Origin: Acidimicrobiaceae bacterium
GTDB lineage: Bacteria; Actinomycetota; Acidimicrobiia; Acidimicrobiales; Poriferisodalaceae
Direction of reading: 5' to 3'
NCBI GenBank assembly: GCA_002721305.1
Contig: PBKA01000008.1
Location: forward strand, 1-64,000
DNA length: 64,000 nt
Made by a program: the position numbers and the translations under genes
Shown: in pieces, positions 40,623-48,463 of the stretch
Layout of the letters: every line of letters starts with the position of its first letter
Numbering within the stretch: position 1 is the stretch's first letter
Notes under the pieces: generated by a model
Seen by the model: only the letters and a program-made list of their open reading frames with translations
Database searches by the model: none
What the model was told of the DNA's origin: nothing

Positions 40623-41327
40623 GTGCCATCAGACCATCCGCTAAACAGGAGCGCTTTCGGCGTACGCGTGCGAATCCGCGAAGACAACAGGTCTGTCGCG
40701 CATGTCACGCCTCTGACTCCTATCGCAAATCTCTCAAGGGACCCCTTTTTGGGGTATTTAGGGACTCTTCAGCAAAGTGGAGTGCAGCAGGTTTTTACCT
40801 CTGCCTTACGGGCAAAAGACCAAAGGTTTTTCTATGAACTCGGATTCACTCTTCACGAGGAGCTGTTGCTCCTTGGCCACAACTTTGCAACCCCGCTCAG
40901 CACTCCTTTGCAACCCACAAGAAGAGGTCGCCGCTCCGACCGGAGCGCAATTCTCCACATCGATGAAAGCGCGTTTCCCGAATTTTGGAGATTTGATCAA
41001 TCCGCCCTCTCGGAAGCAATTAAAGCGACGCCAAAGACTCGTATCCGTGTCAATGCTCAATATCCATTAGCTGGGTTTGCCATCACAGGTCGGTCGGGCC
41101 GGCTGGGCTTTCTGCAGCGCCTTGCCGTTCATCCTCAACATCAACGAAGTGGGCTTGGCCGTTCATTGGTAGCTGATGCCCTCTTGTGGTCCAAGAGACG
41201 TTTTGTGAGGGAACTGTTGGTTAACACTCAGATGGAGAATGTCGGCGCACGAGAACTTTATGAATCCATGGGATTCAGTAAAAAAAGTGCTGGACTTGCT
41301 GTATTGCAGTGGAGCGCCGACACATGA
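40623..41327 (+). CDS. GNAT-family N-acetyltransferase
   Basis: About 234 residues from the GTG at 40623, which follows GGGGAGGGG; the frame is open to 40587. The C-terminal half is a normal GNAT domain (FLQRLAVHPQHQRSGLGRSLVADALL with the acetyl-CoA loop, then NTQMENVGARELYESMGF). The N-terminal half carries a remnant GNAT-like end (SALRAKDQRFFYELGFTLHEELLLLGH), so it may be a tandem-GNAT protein with only the second domain active. The substrate is unknown. Its stop overlaps the DUF6049 start as ATGA. Confidence 0.78.
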   Translation: MPSDHPLNRSAFGVRVRIREDNRSVAHVTPLTPIANLSRDPFLGYLGTLQQSGVQQVFTSALRAKDQRFFYELGFTLHEELLLLGHNFATPLSTPLQPTRRGRRSDRSAILHIDESAFPEFWRFDQSALSEAIKATPKTRIRVNAQYPLAGFAITGRSGRLGFLQRLAVHPQHQRSGLGRSLVADALLWSKRRFVRELLVNTQMENVGARELYESMGFSKKSAGLAVLQWSADT

Positions 41328-43195
41328 CACCCCATCGAATGCTGATCGCTGTCCTGTTGGCCTTAGGGATCTCGATAATGTCGGCGAATCCCGGCGTGGC
41401 CAGTGAAGAAAGTGCCGGTGGATTACAGGTGATCGATCAATCCCCCATCACCCGTGTCGGCGAATTTTTTGACCTTGTTCTTCGACTTCCTGGCGTAGTC
41501 ACCGATGGCGACGAGATGACCCTCACGATTCATGAGCCCGTAGCAGATGAACCGCAGTTCGTTGCTTCGAGCAGAGGTGAGAACTTGGGAGGTGTGCTCG
41601 CTTCGCAAAGGTTTGATTTACCGGATCTTCAACCTGACGTTTGGGGCTTAGCAACAATTTCACTTTTGATCACGGATGCAGGCGTTGACGGTATCCGATT
41701 GGTCCAACCCGGTGTTTACCCCATAAGTATTGAGATGCGCACCGCAAATCAGGAACTCATCGGCAAGCTTGTAACGCATTTAATTCGAGTGGACGAAAGT
41801 ATTCCTGGCAAATTACCCATTGTGTTTGTCGCGGATCTTCGAAACTTGGGTGCTGCGTCGAACAACCCCTCAAGTTTCATTGACACGTGGCTTTCGGTTC
41901 TCGGTGGTCACCGTTCGATTCCGGTGAGCGTCACAGTTCATCCAGTTTCTATAAGCGAAACGTTGTCCTCATCGGTCGCTTCAAGTTTCGTGAATACAAA
42001 ACACGAACTCATTCGAAGCCCCTATACACCAATCAATGAAGCTGCTTTGGTGGACGCAGGCTTGTCCGAAGAGGTCGCGTTTCTCACCCAAATGGGAGTT
42101 GAAAGTCTTGCGACAATAGGGATGCTGGCGCCCCCGACTCTGTGGGTCGGACACGGGGAAGCCGATTCGTCGCAGGTCGATGTTCGTTGGGATCGAGGTA
42201 TTCGAGAACTAATCGTTGAGTCAGTTGCACTGTCTTCTGCTCCTGAAAAAAACCCCCGTGGTCCGGTGGAACTTCTCTCGGACAAGTCAATCTTTCGGGG
42301 TCTTGTTGTCGACGTTCTTTCGCAAAGGCAGGCTCACGACACTCCAGCTAGCGAAGCCCACCGAATTCTTTCGCATTTAGCGACTATTGCTTTGACTGAG
42401 CAATCGAACTCTTTAATCACGATCGACCTTGGTCGAGACAACCGGTCACCAGAATTCGCGGACGTCTTGCTGCGCGGTATCGACACGCTAGATTGGCTCG
42501 CTCCGTTGCCGGCGAGTGAGGCGGTCACAAGGTCGTTGCTTCAAGGCGACGGGCAACCTCGCCAACATCGGCTTCGAAGCCGGTTGAGTTCCGTGAACCA
42601 AGATTTCACTGATTACAGGGAAGCGACTCGCCATTTGAAGGCGATCCGGTCGATGGTCCGTGATGAAGACGCCCAAGAGTACGACGCCCTGTCGCAAGAA
42701 TTGTTGCTCAGTTTGTCCAGTGAAGTGTCGGCCTTGACACAGAAAGATCTTTGGCAGTCCACAGTTGACCTGATCCGTTTACAGACAAGTCTTGTAGATA
42801 TCCCTCCCGACGAGTCAATCCAATTGACTTCTCAGAAAGCTTCAGTGCCCTTCAGTTTCCAAAACAGGGCCGGTATTCCTTTGCGCGTTGAACTTCGAAT
42901 CATCAGCGAACGACTCACGGTTGAAGATTTTGATGACGGTGAAAGCACAACCTTGGTCCTCGAACCCGGCGTCACTACTCACCGATTCAGACTCAGAGCA
43001 CTTGGGTCAGGTTCTTTTCCAGTGTCGATCGAACTTCACTCTCCCGATGGAGAGCTGCTGGTTGGGAGAGCACAAGCTGCCCTTCGTGCTACAACCCCGA
43101 CCGGAGTCGGCCTTGCCCTCACAATAGGAGCTGCTGTGTTTCTGGCAAGTTGGTGGTTGCTTGACAGCAGAAGACGGAAGAATCGAAGGTTATGA
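41324..43195 (+). CDS. DUF6049-type secreted/membrane protein next to murJ
   Basis: 623-residue protein with an N-terminal signal peptide (MLIAVLLALGISIMSANPGVAS) and a C-terminal membrane helix (GVGLALTIGAAVFLASWWLL) followed by a basic tail. The bulk would lie outside the cell. A polysaccharide-deacetylase-like or glycoside-hydrolase-like region (PIVFVADLR, VSVTVHPVS, DVRWDRGIREL) and a C-terminal beta domain (TLVLEPGVTTHRFRLRALGSGSFPVSI) can be suggested only. Its place directly before murJ, with 4-base overlaps on both sides, matches mycobacterial Rv3909. A wall-related role is inferred. Confidence 0.72.
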   Translation: MTPHRMLIAVLLALGISIMSANPGVASEESAGGLQVIDQSPITRVGEFFDLVLRLPGVVTDGDEMTLTIHEPVADEPQFVASSRGENLGGVLASQRFDLPDLQPDVWGLATISLLITDAGVDGIRLVQPGVYPISIEMRTANQELIGKLVTHLIRVDESIPGKLPIVFVADLRNLGAASNNPSSFIDTWLSVLGGHRSIPVSVTVHPVSISETLSSSVASSFVNTKHELIRSPYTPINEAALVDAGLSEEVAFLTQMGVESLATIGMLAPPTLWVGHGEADSSQVDVRWDRGIRELIVESVALSSAPEKNPRGPVELLSDKSIFRGLVVDVLSQRQAHDTPASEAHRILSHLATIALTEQSNSLITIDLGRDNRSPEFADVLLRGIDTLDWLAPLPASEAVTRSLLQGDGQPRQHRLRSRLSSVNQDFTDYREATRHLKAIRSMVRDEDAQEYDALSQELLLSLSSEVSALTQKDLWQSTVDLIRLQTSLVDIPPDESIQLTSQKASVPFSFQNRAGIPLRVELRIISERLTVEDFDDGESTTLVLEPGVTTHRFRLRALGSGSFPVSIELHSPDGELLVGRAQAALRATTPTGVGLALTIGAAVFLASWWLLDSRRRKNRRL

Positions 43196-44859
43196 GGCAC
43201 TCAGGGCCAAGTGCTGCCGCAGGAGGAATCGCGTTATCAAGATTCTCAGGAATAGTCCGCTCCGTCCTCGTCACCAATGTCTTGGGAATCGGCCTGATCG
43301 GCGACGCATTCGCGGCAGCACAACGTATCCCGAACATTCTCCAAAACCTGTTTGGGGAGGGTGCCTTATCGGCGGCTTTCGTACCTGAGTACAGCCGCCT
43401 TGTTGATTCCGATCCCGAAAAGGCAGGAAAACTCGCCGGAGGGTTTCTTTCCTTTCTCTTGTGTTTAGTCACGTGTTTGACTGCTGTCGGATTTCTGGCG
43501 GCTGAACCAATCACTAGATCAATCGCGTGGGGTTTCACTGGGGAACGTTTCGATCTGACAGTTCAGCTTGTCCGAATCGTCCTTTTGGGAACAGCCATCT
43601 TGGTGATGAGTGCTTGGTGTCTAGCAATTCTCAATAGCCACGGTCGGTTCTTTCTTGGCTACTCAGCACCAGTTGTTTGGAACAGTGCCCAAATTTTGGT
43701 TCTCGTGGTCCTGGCTGTCACAGAACTCAGAAACAATTCGGCGGCTGAAACTTTGGCTTGGGCCCTTGTGGTGGGTTCTGTGCTGCAGGTCGCGGTACAA
43801 CTGCCGGCCGTATTGCGCGGCAACCGACATGTTCGCCTCAATTTAGCTTGGAAGGACTCTTCGACTGTCTTGGTGCTTAGAAGATTTGTGCCGGCAGTTG
43901 CAGGAAGGGGAGCTCTGCAATTTTCGTCGTTCATCGACTTAGCGCTGGCGTCACTATTGTCGGTGGGTGCAGCTTCGGCCTTGGCTGCAGCCCAAGCCAT
44001 TTACTTGCTTCCAGTAGCACTCATAGCCACCAGTGTTGCTGCTGCGGAGCTACCAGAATTGAGTCGTTCTCCCGATGTAGCCACCATGCACGAACGAGTC
44101 TCAAAGCGGCTGCTGCAGATGCTTTGGTTTATTGGTCCAGTCCTCGCGTTGTACTTCGCAGTGGGGTCCAATATTGCTGACACTCTGTTCAATCTCGGTG
44201 GCTTTCGCAACAGCGTTAGTGCTGATGACTTGACCGTAATCGGGTTCACTTTGAGCGCTTATGCTCTTGGGCTTCCCGCTTTACTTTCATCGCGTTTGCT
44301 GCAAAACGTCTGCTTCAGTGCCGGAGACACGACTACCCCAACCCGAATTGCGACAGGCCGAGTCTTGGTTTCTGCAGCTCTTGGCGTGACTCTGATGTTT
44401 CAACTCGAACAGGTGTTGGTGTTTAATCAAAGCTTGATTGGGTTTGGCGATTGGAATTTTGTTTGGGGGCCACTGCCTGAGGCGACTCGCAACGCCTCGA
44501 ACCTACCGGCAAGGCTGGGGCCGGTTGGCTTGGCTCTGGGTTCGGCAATCGGAGCTTGGATGGAGTTCTGGCTGCTGAGAAAGCATGTGCTTGGCAGTTG
44601 GGGCTCTAAACGGCTGAGCGGTTCGGATCTTTGGAGACATATCTTGCCGGCGTTATGCGCTTTATGCACAGCCTTGGTTCTTCGAGACCTTAGGATTGAG
44701 CAACCACTTCTACAAATGTCGTTCCTAGTGGTCGCAGTGCTGGCTATACATGTAGCTGTTTCCATTCTGTTGCGGACGCGGAGTTTCTCCCATTTAGTTT
44801 CCGACTTTCGAAACAGCCGACCGAATACAAATCCCGAAAAGGAAGAAGAATCATTATGA
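43192..44859 (+). CDS. murJ: Lipid II flippase MurJ
   Basis: 555-residue MVF-family transporter with about 14 membrane helices that flips the peptidoglycan precursor lipid II. Signature sequences are SRFSGIVRSVLVTNVLGIG, DAFAAAQRIPNILQNLFGEGALSAAFVPEYS and FSAGDTTTPTRIATGRVLV. Unlike mycobacterial MviN, the protein ends soon after the last helix in a short charged tail. The pseudokinase that is fused to MviN there is encoded as a separate gene 45716-47131. It overlaps DUF6049 and degV by 4 bases. Confidence 0.95.
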   Translation: MRHSGPSAAAGGIALSRFSGIVRSVLVTNVLGIGLIGDAFAAAQRIPNILQNLFGEGALSAAFVPEYSRLVDSDPEKAGKLAGGFLSFLLCLVTCLTAVGFLAAEPITRSIAWGFTGERFDLTVQLVRIVLLGTAILVMSAWCLAILNSHGRFFLGYSAPVVWNSAQILVLVVLAVTELRNNSAAETLAWALVVGSVLQVAVQLPAVLRGNRHVRLNLAWKDSSTVLVLRRFVPAVAGRGALQFSSFIDLALASLLSVGAASALAAAQAIYLLPVALIATSVAAAELPELSRSPDVATMHERVSKRLLQMLWFIGPVLALYFAVGSNIADTLFNLGGFRNSVSADDLTVIGFTLSAYALGLPALLSSRLLQNVCFSAGDTTTPTRIATGRVLVSAALGVTLMFQLEQVLVFNQSLIGFGDWNFVWGPLPEATRNASNLPARLGPVGLALGSAIGAWMEFWLLRKHVLGSWGSKRLSGSDLWRHILPALCALCTALVLRDLRIEQPLLQMSFLVVAVLAIHVAVSILLRTRSFSHLVSDFRNSRPNTNPEKEEESL

Positions 44860-45698
44860 CCTCGGTTCACATCGTCACCGATAGCTCATGCGATCTCCCA
44901 GATGCGGTGATCGCTGATCTGAATATCAAAGTCGTTCCGCTAAAGATTCGTTTTGGCGATACTGAGTTCATTGACCGATTCGAGCTCACTACTGATCAAT
45001 TTTGGGAGAAGTGTCAATCAATCGATGAGTTGCCCTCTACAGCTGCGCCTGCTCCTGGGGCCTTCGTGGAACAATTCCAGCAAGCAGCGGAACAAGGCGC
45101 AGCGGGCGTCGTCGCGATCGTTCTGAGTGGTGAACTTTCGGCGACCATTGAAGCCGCTCAACAAGCGGCTCTCATGGTCAAGGATGAAATCGAAGTCACG
45201 GTAGTAGATAGCCGGACAGTGACAATGGGCCTTGGCTCAATTGTGGTGGGCGCTGCAACCGCCGCTAAATCAGGCGCAAGTGCTGAAGAAGTCGCCGCCC
45301 ATGCCCTCGATTGCATCGAGCGGACACAGGTGCACGCGGCACTAGACACTTTGGAGAACTTGCGCAAAGGGGGCCGAATCGGCGCGGCTGGATCCCTTTT
45401 GGGGTCAATGCTCTCAATCAAGCCATTGATTGAGGTTCGCAACGGAGTAGTCGAACCTGCAGGCAAGCAACGAACTAGGGGTAAGGCCCTCAACACCCTC
45501 GTTGCGGTCGTCGAAGAGAACGCAGGTCAGATTGAGCAAATCTGTGTTCTCCACGCGGCCTGCGAAGACGTTGATGCGTTCGTAGAAAAGATCAAGGCCG
45601 CGGTCAACGTCGACGTTCTCGTAGGACAAGTTGGGCCAGTTGTTGGCGCACACGCTGGTATTGGGACAATAGGTGTCGCTTTCCAAACAGCCAACTAG
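44856..45698 (+). CDS. DegV-family fatty-acid-binding protein
   Basis: 280-residue DegV protein: VHIVTDSSCDLPDAVIADLNI, VVPLKIRFGDTEFID, SIDELPSTAAPAPGAFVEQF, a segment like VVDSRTVTMGLG, and LRKGGRIGAAGSLLGSMLSIKP. Family members bind fatty acids and in Firmicutes present them to acyl kinases. The role in this host is unknown. It lies between murJ and the pseudokinase gene and is coupled to murJ by a 4-base overlap. Confidence 0.88.
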   Translation: MTSVHIVTDSSCDLPDAVIADLNIKVVPLKIRFGDTEFIDRFELTTDQFWEKCQSIDELPSTAAPAPGAFVEQFQQAAEQGAAGVVAIVLSGELSATIEAAQQAALMVKDEIEVTVVDSRTVTMGLGSIVVGAATAAKSGASAEEVAAHALDCIERTQVHAALDTLENLRKGGRIGAAGSLLGSMLSIKPLIEVRNGVVEPAGKQRTRGKALNTLVAVVEENAGQIEQICVLHAACEDVDAFVEKIKAAVNVDVLVGQVGPVVGAHAGIGTIGVAFQTAN

Positions 45699-45715
45699 GC
45701 GCTCCGTTTAACCCA

Positions 45716-47131
45716 ATGGCCGAAGATCATCAGAGATACCGCATTGACGAACGTCTCCACCACGGCCTAGTTGAGTCCTGGTCAGGGTTAGATCGCACCT
45801 TGGACCGTCCTGTAACAATCCGGATATTGGATCCCTCGAGCGAAGTTGGAAAACGGGTACAGCTCCAAGCGCGATCCCTTGTACGGCTTGAACATCCCTC
45901 TCTTCTCCATGTACTGGACACCATCGAGCTAGACGATCGAGTCGGACTGGTGACAGAAACCCTGCCTGAAACAAGCCTTGAGGAACATCTTGCTTTGGAG
46001 GGGATCCTTTCACCTGAAGAAACTCTTGCTGTCGCCACCCAGCTCGGAGAAGCACTGTTATCCCTTCACTCTGCGGGCTTCGCAATCGGCGATCTCCAAG
46101 CAAAACACATAGGTCGACGCAAAGACGGCACTGTTGTCATCGTTGATGGCCCCCCAACCAGTGACGCAAACACAATCCCCGCACGACCTCAAGACGACAT
46201 AGTGTCCCTTGGTGAATTGATTCATGAGTTGCTTGTCGGCTTTCGACCGCAACTCGACCATCAAGGTCGCCACGAAATTCATCCGGCAATATCCTCATCG
46301 TTCAGGCAACTAATAAGAAGATCAGTTGACCGTGATAACCAATGGTCCGACGCTTCTGCATTGGTACTGGCACTGAGATCCCTCAACCAAGACTTGGACC
46401 GAGTTTCTTCCGTTGTTGAGCCGGGCCAAATCGATTACCTGAAAGCAGAGCGTTCGTGGCTTGCTCCTGCTGCTTTCGTCGGGATTCTGGCCGCGGTCGT
46501 CATCCTGGTAGGTCTACTGGTGACCCGAACTCAAGTCGGTTCCTCACTCGTCGAAAACGTACGCGAAGTGGTCCGATTGGAAGCAGAAGAACCCATAGTC
46601 ATCGACAACTTCGAGAACTCCACTTCAGTAACAACGACGGTGGTCGCTCGGCCTGAATCAATTTCGTCCAAGCTTCTAATTGTCTCGATTGTTCCCTTTG
46701 ATCCAGAGGGTGACGGTCGACGACTGGAACACCCTGAAAAAGTTGAGCTAATCAACAACGGCGACAGCAGCAGCGGTTGGTACACCGAGAGATACACGAC
46801 TGCTGATTTCGGCAAATTGAAAGACGGTGTCGGTCTCATCATTTCGCTGGGTCCCCCGCAACAAATCGACCGCCTCAGAATTAGTTCCCCGACCATCGAT
46901 TGGTCCTTTGAGATTTTTGCCTCTGAAAAAACGGGGGGTGGTATCCAGGAGTGGGGTGATCCCGTCGCCATTCGTGATGAAATCAGTGGAACCATCACCG
47001 TCGATTTGGAAGGTGTGCCAGGGGCGACCTTATTACTCTGGATAACCTCGCTGGGGCGGGAATTGCCAGCGGGTGGTCATCGCGTGACAGTGAGTGAAAT
47101 CTCTGTGACGGGGCGGCCAAAGTATGGATAA
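45716..47131 (+). CDS. Membrane-anchored pseudokinase (MviN C-terminal type)
   Basis: 471 residues in three parts. Residues 1-230 have the Ser/Thr kinase fold, but the beta-3 Lys position is Arg (VTIRIL, 33-38), the catalytic loop reads GDLQAKHI (Asp kept, HRD His and the Asn lost), and DFG reads VDGPP. One membrane helix (about 248-270) follows. Residues 330-471 form an extracellular beta domain (VELINNGDSSSGWYTERYTT, LRISSPTIDWSFEIF) resembling carbohydrate-binding discoidin folds. This equals the region of mycobacterial MviN C-terminal to MurJ, which in mycobacteria is phosphorylated by PknB and bound by FhaA. An active kinase is unlikely. Confidence 0.78.
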   Translation: MAEDHQRYRIDERLHHGLVESWSGLDRTLDRPVTIRILDPSSEVGKRVQLQARSLVRLEHPSLLHVLDTIELDDRVGLVTETLPETSLEEHLALEGILSPEETLAVATQLGEALLSLHSAGFAIGDLQAKHIGRRKDGTVVIVDGPPTSDANTIPARPQDDIVSLGELIHELLVGFRPQLDHQGRHEIHPAISSSFRQLIRRSVDRDNQWSDASALVLALRSLNQDLDRVSSVVEPGQIDYLKAERSWLAPAAFVGILAAVVILVGLLVTRTQVGSSLVENVREVVRLEAEEPIVIDNFENSTSVTTTVVARPESISSKLLIVSIVPFDPEGDGRRLEHPEKVELINNGDSSSGWYTERYTTADFGKLKDGVGLIISLGPPQQIDRLRISSPTIDWSFEIFASEKTGGGIQEWGDPVAIRDEISGTITVDLEGVPGATLLLWITSLGRELPAGGHRVTVSEISVTGRPKYG

Positions 47132-47180: not shown

Positions 47181-47486
47181 GTGACTTCTCCCTCAACTGA
47201 AAAGTCATCAGACACCGGTCTGGCGGCACAAGCAACGAAGTTCGTAGTGAGCACCGTTGAGTCAGTGCGTGGGAAGACCACCGGTCCCCTGCTCTTCATC
47301 GCTCGATTGCTCGTCTACAGCATTGTGTTCTTTGTCGCCGTGGTTGCCGGCGTCAGCTTATTGATGATCGCCATGGTGAGAATTGTCAATCAGCTACTCC
47401 CGGGGGATGTTTGGACGACCTATCTTCTGTTGGGCGTGTTTTTCGCTTTGGTTGGAATGTTTCTGTGGTCGAAACGCGCTAGTTGA
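47181..47486 (+). CDS. Small membrane protein (holin-X-like)
   Basis: 101 residues from a GTG. A polar N-terminal 30 residues is followed by two hydrophobic segments (LLFIARLLVYSIVFFVAVVAGVSLLMI and YLLLGVFFALVGMFLW). It resembles small actinobacterial membrane proteins annotated as holin superfamily III, but the role is unknown. It sits between the pseudokinase gene and trxB and probably belongs to their transcript. Confidence 0.65.
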   Translation: MTSPSTEKSSDTGLAAQATKFVVSTVESVRGKTTGPLLFIARLLVYSIVFFVAVVAGVSLLMIAMVRIVNQLLPGDVWTTYLLLGVFFALVGMFLWSKRAS

Positions 47487-47515: not shown

Positions 47516-48463
47516 GTGAACGACATTCGCGACGTCATAATCATCGGAAGCGGCCCAGCCGGTCTGACGGCTGCGATCTACACCGCTCGAGCGAACATGT
47601 CCCCACTGGTCATTGAAGGAGAACCCTCTTCCACAAGTGACCAGCCAGGGGGCCAATTGATGTTGACGACGGAAGTTGAAAATTACCCCGGTTTTCCAGA
47701 AGGAATTATGGGCCCAGAGTTAATGATGAATTTCCGAGCACAGGCCTCGAGATTTGGTGCCGAGTTCATCACCAACAAGGTGACACGAGTTGACTTCGGC
47801 CAGCACCCGTTCACAATCGAAGTCGGTGACACGAGCTATAGCACCCGCTCAGTGATTGTTTCGACCGGAGCTCAAAGTTTGATGCTGGGTTTGCCCAACG
47901 AAGATCGGCTCATTGGACACGGGGTTTCGACTTGTGCCACATGTGACGGATTTTTTTTCAAAGACCAAGAAATCGCTGTTGTCGGCGGTGGCGACAGTGC
48001 TGTCGAGGAGGCAACCTTCCTGACACGCTTCGCCTCAAAGGTGTACTTAGTGCATCGAAGAGATGAACTTCGCGCTTCGAAAATTATGCGTGACAGGGCA
48101 TTTAACAACCCCAAGATTGAGATTCTTTGGAACAACGAAGTAGTTGAGGTGCACGGCGAGGAAAAGCTTTCCGGGGTCATCCTTGAGAACACGGTTACTA
48201 AAGAAAGGGCTTCCCTGCCTGTAACGGGTCTTTTCATCGCTATTGGACACCAGCCAAACACCTCGCTCTTCGCCGGGCAGTTGGACTTGAAGAGCAACGG
48301 TTATCTCGTTACGAAACCCAACAGCAGTGAGACCCAGGTTCCGGGGGTGTTCGCATGTGGCGACGTTCAGGATGATTACTATCGCCAAGCAATAACTGCG
48401 GCGGGCTCTGGATGCATGGCGGCAATAGACGCTGAAAGATGGCTGGAAGAAACCGGTGAGTGA
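47516..48463 (+). CDS. trxB: Thioredoxin reductase
   Basis: About 315 residues from the GTG at 47516, with GGAGA just upstream; a TTG at 47483 overlapping the previous stop is also possible. FAD-binding VIIIGSGPAGLTAAIYTARA, NADPH-binding AVVGGGDSAVEEATFL, the redox pair CATCDGFF, and the FAD-binding C-terminal FACGDVQDDYYRQAITAAGSG are complete. It reduces the TrxA encoded next. Confidence 0.95.
   Translation: MNDIRDVIIIGSGPAGLTAAIYTARANMSPLVIEGEPSSTSDQPGGQLMLTTEVENYPGFPEGIMGPELMMNFRAQASRFGAEFITNKVTRVDFGQHPFTIEVGDTSYSTRSVIVSTGAQSLMLGLPNEDRLIGHGVSTCATCDGFFFKDQEIAVVGGGDSAVEEATFLTRFASKVYLVHRRDELRASKIMRDRAFNNPKIEILWNNEVVEVHGEEKLSGVILENTVTKERASLPVTGLFIAIGHQPNTSLFAGQLDLKSNGYLVTKPNSSETQVPGVFACGDVQDDYYRQAITAAGSGCMAAIDAERWLEETGE

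Follow-up and report, generated by a model that had tools for sequence, protein, structure and literature searches.

In mycobacteria-like genomes, a pseudokinase is fused to MurJ in the protein MviN, whereas the window analysed here (the whole stretch of 64,000 nucleotides, assigned to the class Acidimicrobiia from its named neighbours) carries murJ, degV and a membrane pseudokinase gene as three separate ORFs at positions 43192-47131 of the plus strand. This arrangement raises the question of whether the separate genes represent the state before fusion, and of what the pseudokinase descends from and acts upon. Open reading frames and protein families confirmed the layout described in the original prediction, namely three independent genes in which the start of degV overlaps the end of murJ by 4 bases (ATGA) and a gap of 17 bases separates the degV stop from the kinase-like gene; upstream, the 3' end of the DUF6049 gene overlaps the start of murJ, also by 4 bases (Table 1). 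The same three separate genes recur in some 20 other genomes of the family (those that were readable) and in named MAG records, which rules out an assembly or frameshift artefact as the cause of the split. The gene order in the window, DUF6049-murJ-degV-kinase-trxB-trxA-cwlM-parB, matches the order Rv3909-mviN-(sigM, rsmA)-trxB2-trxC-cwlM-parB of Mycobacterium tuberculosis. In some relatives, a sigma-factor-like frame followed by an anti-sigma-like frame, both judged by eye, lies between the kinase gene and trxB (L078, 8444-9166; L083, 7317-8933). The window has no such frames at this place, and their absence looks like the loss of a sigM-rsmA-like pair.

Table 1. Features of the locus, in coordinates of the window.
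Feature	Position	Strand	Basis
DUF6049 secreted/membrane protein (Rv3909-like)	41309..43195	+	PF19516 6e-10; usual upstream partner of murJ/kinase across the phylum
murJ, lipid II flippase, 555 aa	43192..44859	+	PF03023 5.7e-69; TIGR01695; MurJ tree and identities
degV / FakB-like fatty-acid-binding protein, 280 aa	44856..45698	+	PF02645 4.1e-80; TIGR00762
Kinase-like membrane protein gene, 471 aa	45716..47131	+	Pkinase PF00069 4.7e-8
Pseudokinase domain, ~aa 1-228	45716..46399	+	MviN pseudokinase PDB matches; degenerate motifs; kinase fold model
Single transmembrane helix, ~aa 249-271	46460..46528	+	Hydrophobic stretch APAAFVGILAAVVILVGLLVT read from sequence
Extracellular domain, aa 318-471, CBM32 / F5/8 type C-like beta-sandwich	46667..47128	+	Model pLDDT 91; Foldseek
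Small membrane protein	47181..47486	+	Conserved next gene in the class
trxB	47516..48463	+	Syntenic with M. tuberculosis Rv3913

The score of the kinase-like gene against the PF00069 Pkinase profile is only just above the cutoff. Its top PDB matches are the MviN pseudokinase structures 3OTV, 3OUK, 3UQC and 3OUN (Gee et al. 2012, as cited in PMC12599244 and PMC10166564), which came ahead of every active kinase with an E-value of 3.8e-9. A set of 1943 reading frames, drawn from 22 loci of other classes and without locus L140, was searched with profiles built from members of the class only; these matched exactly one gene per locus, recovering all five MurJ-kinase fusions in the set at 4.6e-45 or better. 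The ectodomain profile matched the fused proteins with E-values of 3e-20 to 6e-24, and an hhalign comparison of the ectodomain with that of a fused protein gave a probability of 98.6. Foldseek searches with the ectodomain model retrieved CBM32 and discoidin-like folds (best E-value 5.5e-6), and the Pfam F5_F8_type_C domain was found in 4 of 26 members. MviN has been reported to carry a 'carbohydrate-binding domain' (PMC12599244), with which a CBM32-like model agrees. The predicted model places a helix at residues 236-271 of the protein, with low confidence. When only structure is compared, the full-length model comes nearest to ordinary PknA/PknB kinases, and hence what ties the protein specifically to MviN is its sequence, ectodomain and position. 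Judged from these comparisons, the kinase-like gene is homologous to the C-terminal half of MviN, both in its kinase part and in its ectodomain; the possibility, raised with the original prediction, that the pseudokinase is unrelated to this region is contradicted by the class-only profiles and by the PDB matches. The same genome encodes a further protein, of 626 aa (L202, G000:C17:26878-27522), that is weakly kinase-like and sits on a long branch in the kinase tree; its frame has same-sized counterparts in genus members.

The label of pseudokinase is also correct as far as the motifs of the window protein tell. The VAIK lysine is replaced by Arg36 and the alphaC glutamate by glutamine, the HRDxxxxN position reads IGDLQAKH, the DFG position reads VDG, the activation loop is deleted and APE is absent. 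The HRD aspartate is kept in the window protein but is Glu or Gly in its relatives. The kinase part has a dN/dS of about 0.07-0.11 (three computable pairs, with dS near saturation in two), indicating that the gene is under purifying selection rather than decaying. The threonine phosphorylated by PknB in mycobacterial MviN (ADR-T in the fused sequences) is not conserved, the window protein having DLDRVSS, which counts against FhaA docking through that site in this protein.

A comparison of fused and split states across actinobacterial classes had been proposed with the original prediction. We carried it out on loci whose class membership was taken from a kinship listing, with families designated by numbers (f4, f87 and so on). 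The murJ and kinase genes were split in all 39 loci inside the class and in 18 of 21 outside it, the fused form accounting for 0/39 and 3/21, respectively. Fused proteins occurred only in family f87 (L107, L108, L110, L114, L147, L148 and L170) and in two Rhodococcus records (L272 and L273); among the genomes compared, the fusion is thus limited to Mycobacterium-, Rhodococcus- and Nocardia-type genomes. Family f82, which we take to consist of Streptomyces-like genomes, has the two genes split. The f87 motif strings, VALT and LSIDHPSR or LSIDHPDR, are those given in PMC12599244 for M. tuberculosis, M. leprae and Nocardia. A separate 'protein kinase family protein' gene has been described as often lying downstream of an unextended mviN in Actinobacteria (PMC10166564, S6 Fig legend), and the text of the same paper confines the MviN extension to arabinogalactan-bearing taxa. 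The split arrangement is, therefore, already published, and the window is no rare intermediate. Given that splitting is widespread and fusion restricted to one clade, separate genes are likely the ancestral arrangement, followed by a single fusion to MurJ near Mycobacteriales.

Was the ancestral separate protein already a pseudokinase? In an alignment of 60 locus proteins, the window's family lacks the catalytic residues, while VAxK, HRDxKPxN, DFG and APE/SPE are retained by most of the order's families and by several other classes; about 30 named records agree in showing intact motifs at the locus. These intact-motif kinases have the same ectodomain and position as the pseudokinase. In the kinase tree they mostly cluster together, beside PknB, in a locus-kinase clade of moderate support (0.83) that contains three other kinases. 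Losses were not counted on a kinase-domain tree including the pseudokinases, as this tree has no support values and, being subject to long-branch attraction, draws all the dead kinases together. On a species-proxy tree of TrxB, ParB and DUF6049, at least seven independent losses are needed, a count that assumes irreversible loss and depends on sampling: in the window's family (support 1.0), f4, f59, f74, the clade f77+f82+f87+f91+f94, one f88 genome and f100. Four of the seven rest on one genome each. The HRD aspartate is gone in f77, L158 and f100, with the lysine and the DFG aspartate kept. The same combination is seen in the locus kinases of L139, L140, L145 and L158, which are possible intermediates toward a pseudokinase. 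The locus kinases of L243, L255 and L257 keep VAxK, but a pattern search found neither HRDxKPxN nor DFG in them, which may reflect one more independent loss.

These alignments and trees make it probable that the ancestor was a PknB-related receptor Ser/Thr kinase capable of catalysis. We think it fairly probable that the MviN pseudokinase derives from a murJ-linked receptor kinase that was active and bore a CBM32-like sensor, that remains active in many Actinobacteria today, and that has become a pseudokinase at least seven times. The reverse history, with a pseudokinase as ancestor and the intact locus kinases produced by later replacement of the kinase domain with PknB-like domains, would account for the proximity of the intact forms to PknB and for the few non-locus kinases among them. 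It appears unlikely, given that deep branches of both the class and the phylum contain intact forms, which mostly group together and keep the same ectodomain and position. Far less credible still is an ancestral MurJ-kinase fusion split secondarily in most lineages. Fused forms do exist, but they are found in a single tip clade while all other sampled classes have the genes split, and we reject this order of events. Combining identity with history, we consider it probable that the kinase-like gene is a separate form of the MviN C-terminal half that has a kinase fold in the cytoplasm, a single membrane helix and a CBM32-like domain outside, and that was split before it was fused and active before it was dead.

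The MurJ of the window has a different history. It scores 247 bits with TIGR01695 (cut-off 235.55) and is the only MurJ found in the genome, a provisional count as the genome is 89% complete. In the MurJ tree, the window's family forms a clade with one f14 locus, one f27 genome and family f88 (support 1.0), and the actinobacterial locus MurJs form a separate group (support 0.90). The window MurJ is only 21-24% identical to ordinary locus MurJs, whereas those of the class that were compared are 48-54% identical to one another; with members of its clade from other families, it shares 37-42% identity. Loci carrying a MurJ of this clade are L085, L142, L158 and L050. These values do not support orthology with the MurJ half of MviN or with the actinobacterial locus MurJ. 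The simplest reading of the tree is that this essential flippase gene was replaced in place, and the window MurJ is probably a xenologue from another lineage; ancient paralogy with differential loss is a less simple alternative. A search for a donor among plasmids gave only matches of 29-33% among those listed. Since murJ has probably been exchanged in the window's family, the pairing with the kinase is not tied to one particular MurJ.

The third gene, degV, adjoins the kinase gene in 38 of 39 loci inside the class and in none of 21 outside. The window DegV belongs to the DegV fold family without reaching the FakB1 equivalog cut-off. No other DegV was found in the genome, where the partner FakA is encoded elsewhere (again provisional at 89% completeness). 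A sole DegV with FakA elsewhere fits an ordinary fatty-acid kinase function with putative lipid binding. DegV had been put forward as a lipid-binding input to MurJ; we do not accept it as evidence of such an input, which would rest on adjacency that is specific to the class.

These observations bear on what the separate receptor does. In the most likely mode of action, its ectodomain would sense a wall glycan or precursor outside the cell, the dead kinase domain would serve as a membrane docking platform in the PknB-FhaA circuit, and the pseudokinase would act in trans on wall synthesis and possibly on MurJ. Genes for FhaA, for FhaB as a second FHA protein and for PstP-, RodA-, PbpA- and PknB-like proteins lie in one cluster of the genome, all but FhaA being named by eye and from the M. 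tuberculosis order, and the Ser-Arg pair is kept in the FHA domain of FhaA, as read by eye. A regulator acting in trans is plausible. That the window shows the pair literally before fusion, with the regulator acting on the adjacent MurJ and DegV relaying a lipid signal, is nonetheless improbable. The genes are adjacent on one strand with their short overlap and gap, and the split is the common state, but the MurJ belongs to another clade, degV lies between murJ and kinase only in Acidimicrobiia, and relatives have an intact kinase. Of the proposed state before fusion, the order of events is likely sound, fusion being confined to one clade. The equation with this locus fails in two respects: its MurJ is probably a replacement and not an orthologue of the MurJ half of MviN, and with intact-motif kinases at the locus in many relatives, a pseudokinase is probably not the ancestral form.

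More weight, though still short of an even chance, goes to a kinase-like receptor with no special tie to MurJ, whose partners would be DUF6049, DegV or the general PknB wall network and which lies near murJ as part of a conserved envelope cluster near parAB. Where DUF6049 is in view, loci that keep the kinase but lack murJ number 8 of 33 inside the class, where kinase, degV and DUF6049 stay together (one of the eight also lacks degV), and 2 of 21 outside; MurJ, therefore, need not be the target of the kinase. The probable exchange of murJ in the window's family points in the same direction. Against this reading stand the fusion of the pseudokinase to MurJ in mycobacteria-like genomes and the finding of murJ within view at 19 of the 21 loci from other classes. 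The DUF6049-degV-kinase block without murJ is seen in L084, L088, L089, L090, L092, L094 and L162; for G026 and G030, the chromosome has its best murJ match at a distant position.

The regulation of MviN in mycobacteria has been treated as a speciality of the mycolata, and the same receptor is now found throughout the phylum as a gene of its own, in many cases with its active site intact. If the history of an active ancestor holds, live and dead versions of one receptor exist today at one conserved locus, a series provided by nature, from the live kinase through the dead scaffold to the fusion, that suggests live relatives and substrates open to testing. It also advises caution in regarding MurJ as a universal target, as the receptor can stay in place when the flippase is lost from the locus or exchanged.

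Compared with known systems, the window protein is closest to the C-terminal half of M. tuberculosis MviN (Rv3910), with which it shares a kinase fold with lost motifs, a membrane helix C-terminal to it and a CBM-like ectodomain, as well as the gene order from DUF6049 to parB. It differs in being a separate gene, with degV in between and a MurJ of another lineage, and in lacking the threonine that PknB phosphorylates in mycobacterial MviN. It also resembles the ActPs3 pseudokinase family (PMC12599244) in its degraded motifs, activation-loop deletion and C-terminal membrane helix; other ActPs3 members lack a carbohydrate-binding domain according to that review, whereas the split members found here carry a CBM-like domain and have intact-motif orthologues at the locus. 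The split kinase beside unextended mviN in PMC10166564 is probably the same gene as that of the window, the S6 Fig legend giving no analysis of ectodomain, motifs or losses. Finally, PknB-type PASTA Ser/Thr receptor kinases share the fold and the topology of kinase, one helix and extracellular sensor, but the window protein has a CBM32-like ectodomain in place of PASTA repeats and has lost the catalytic motifs.
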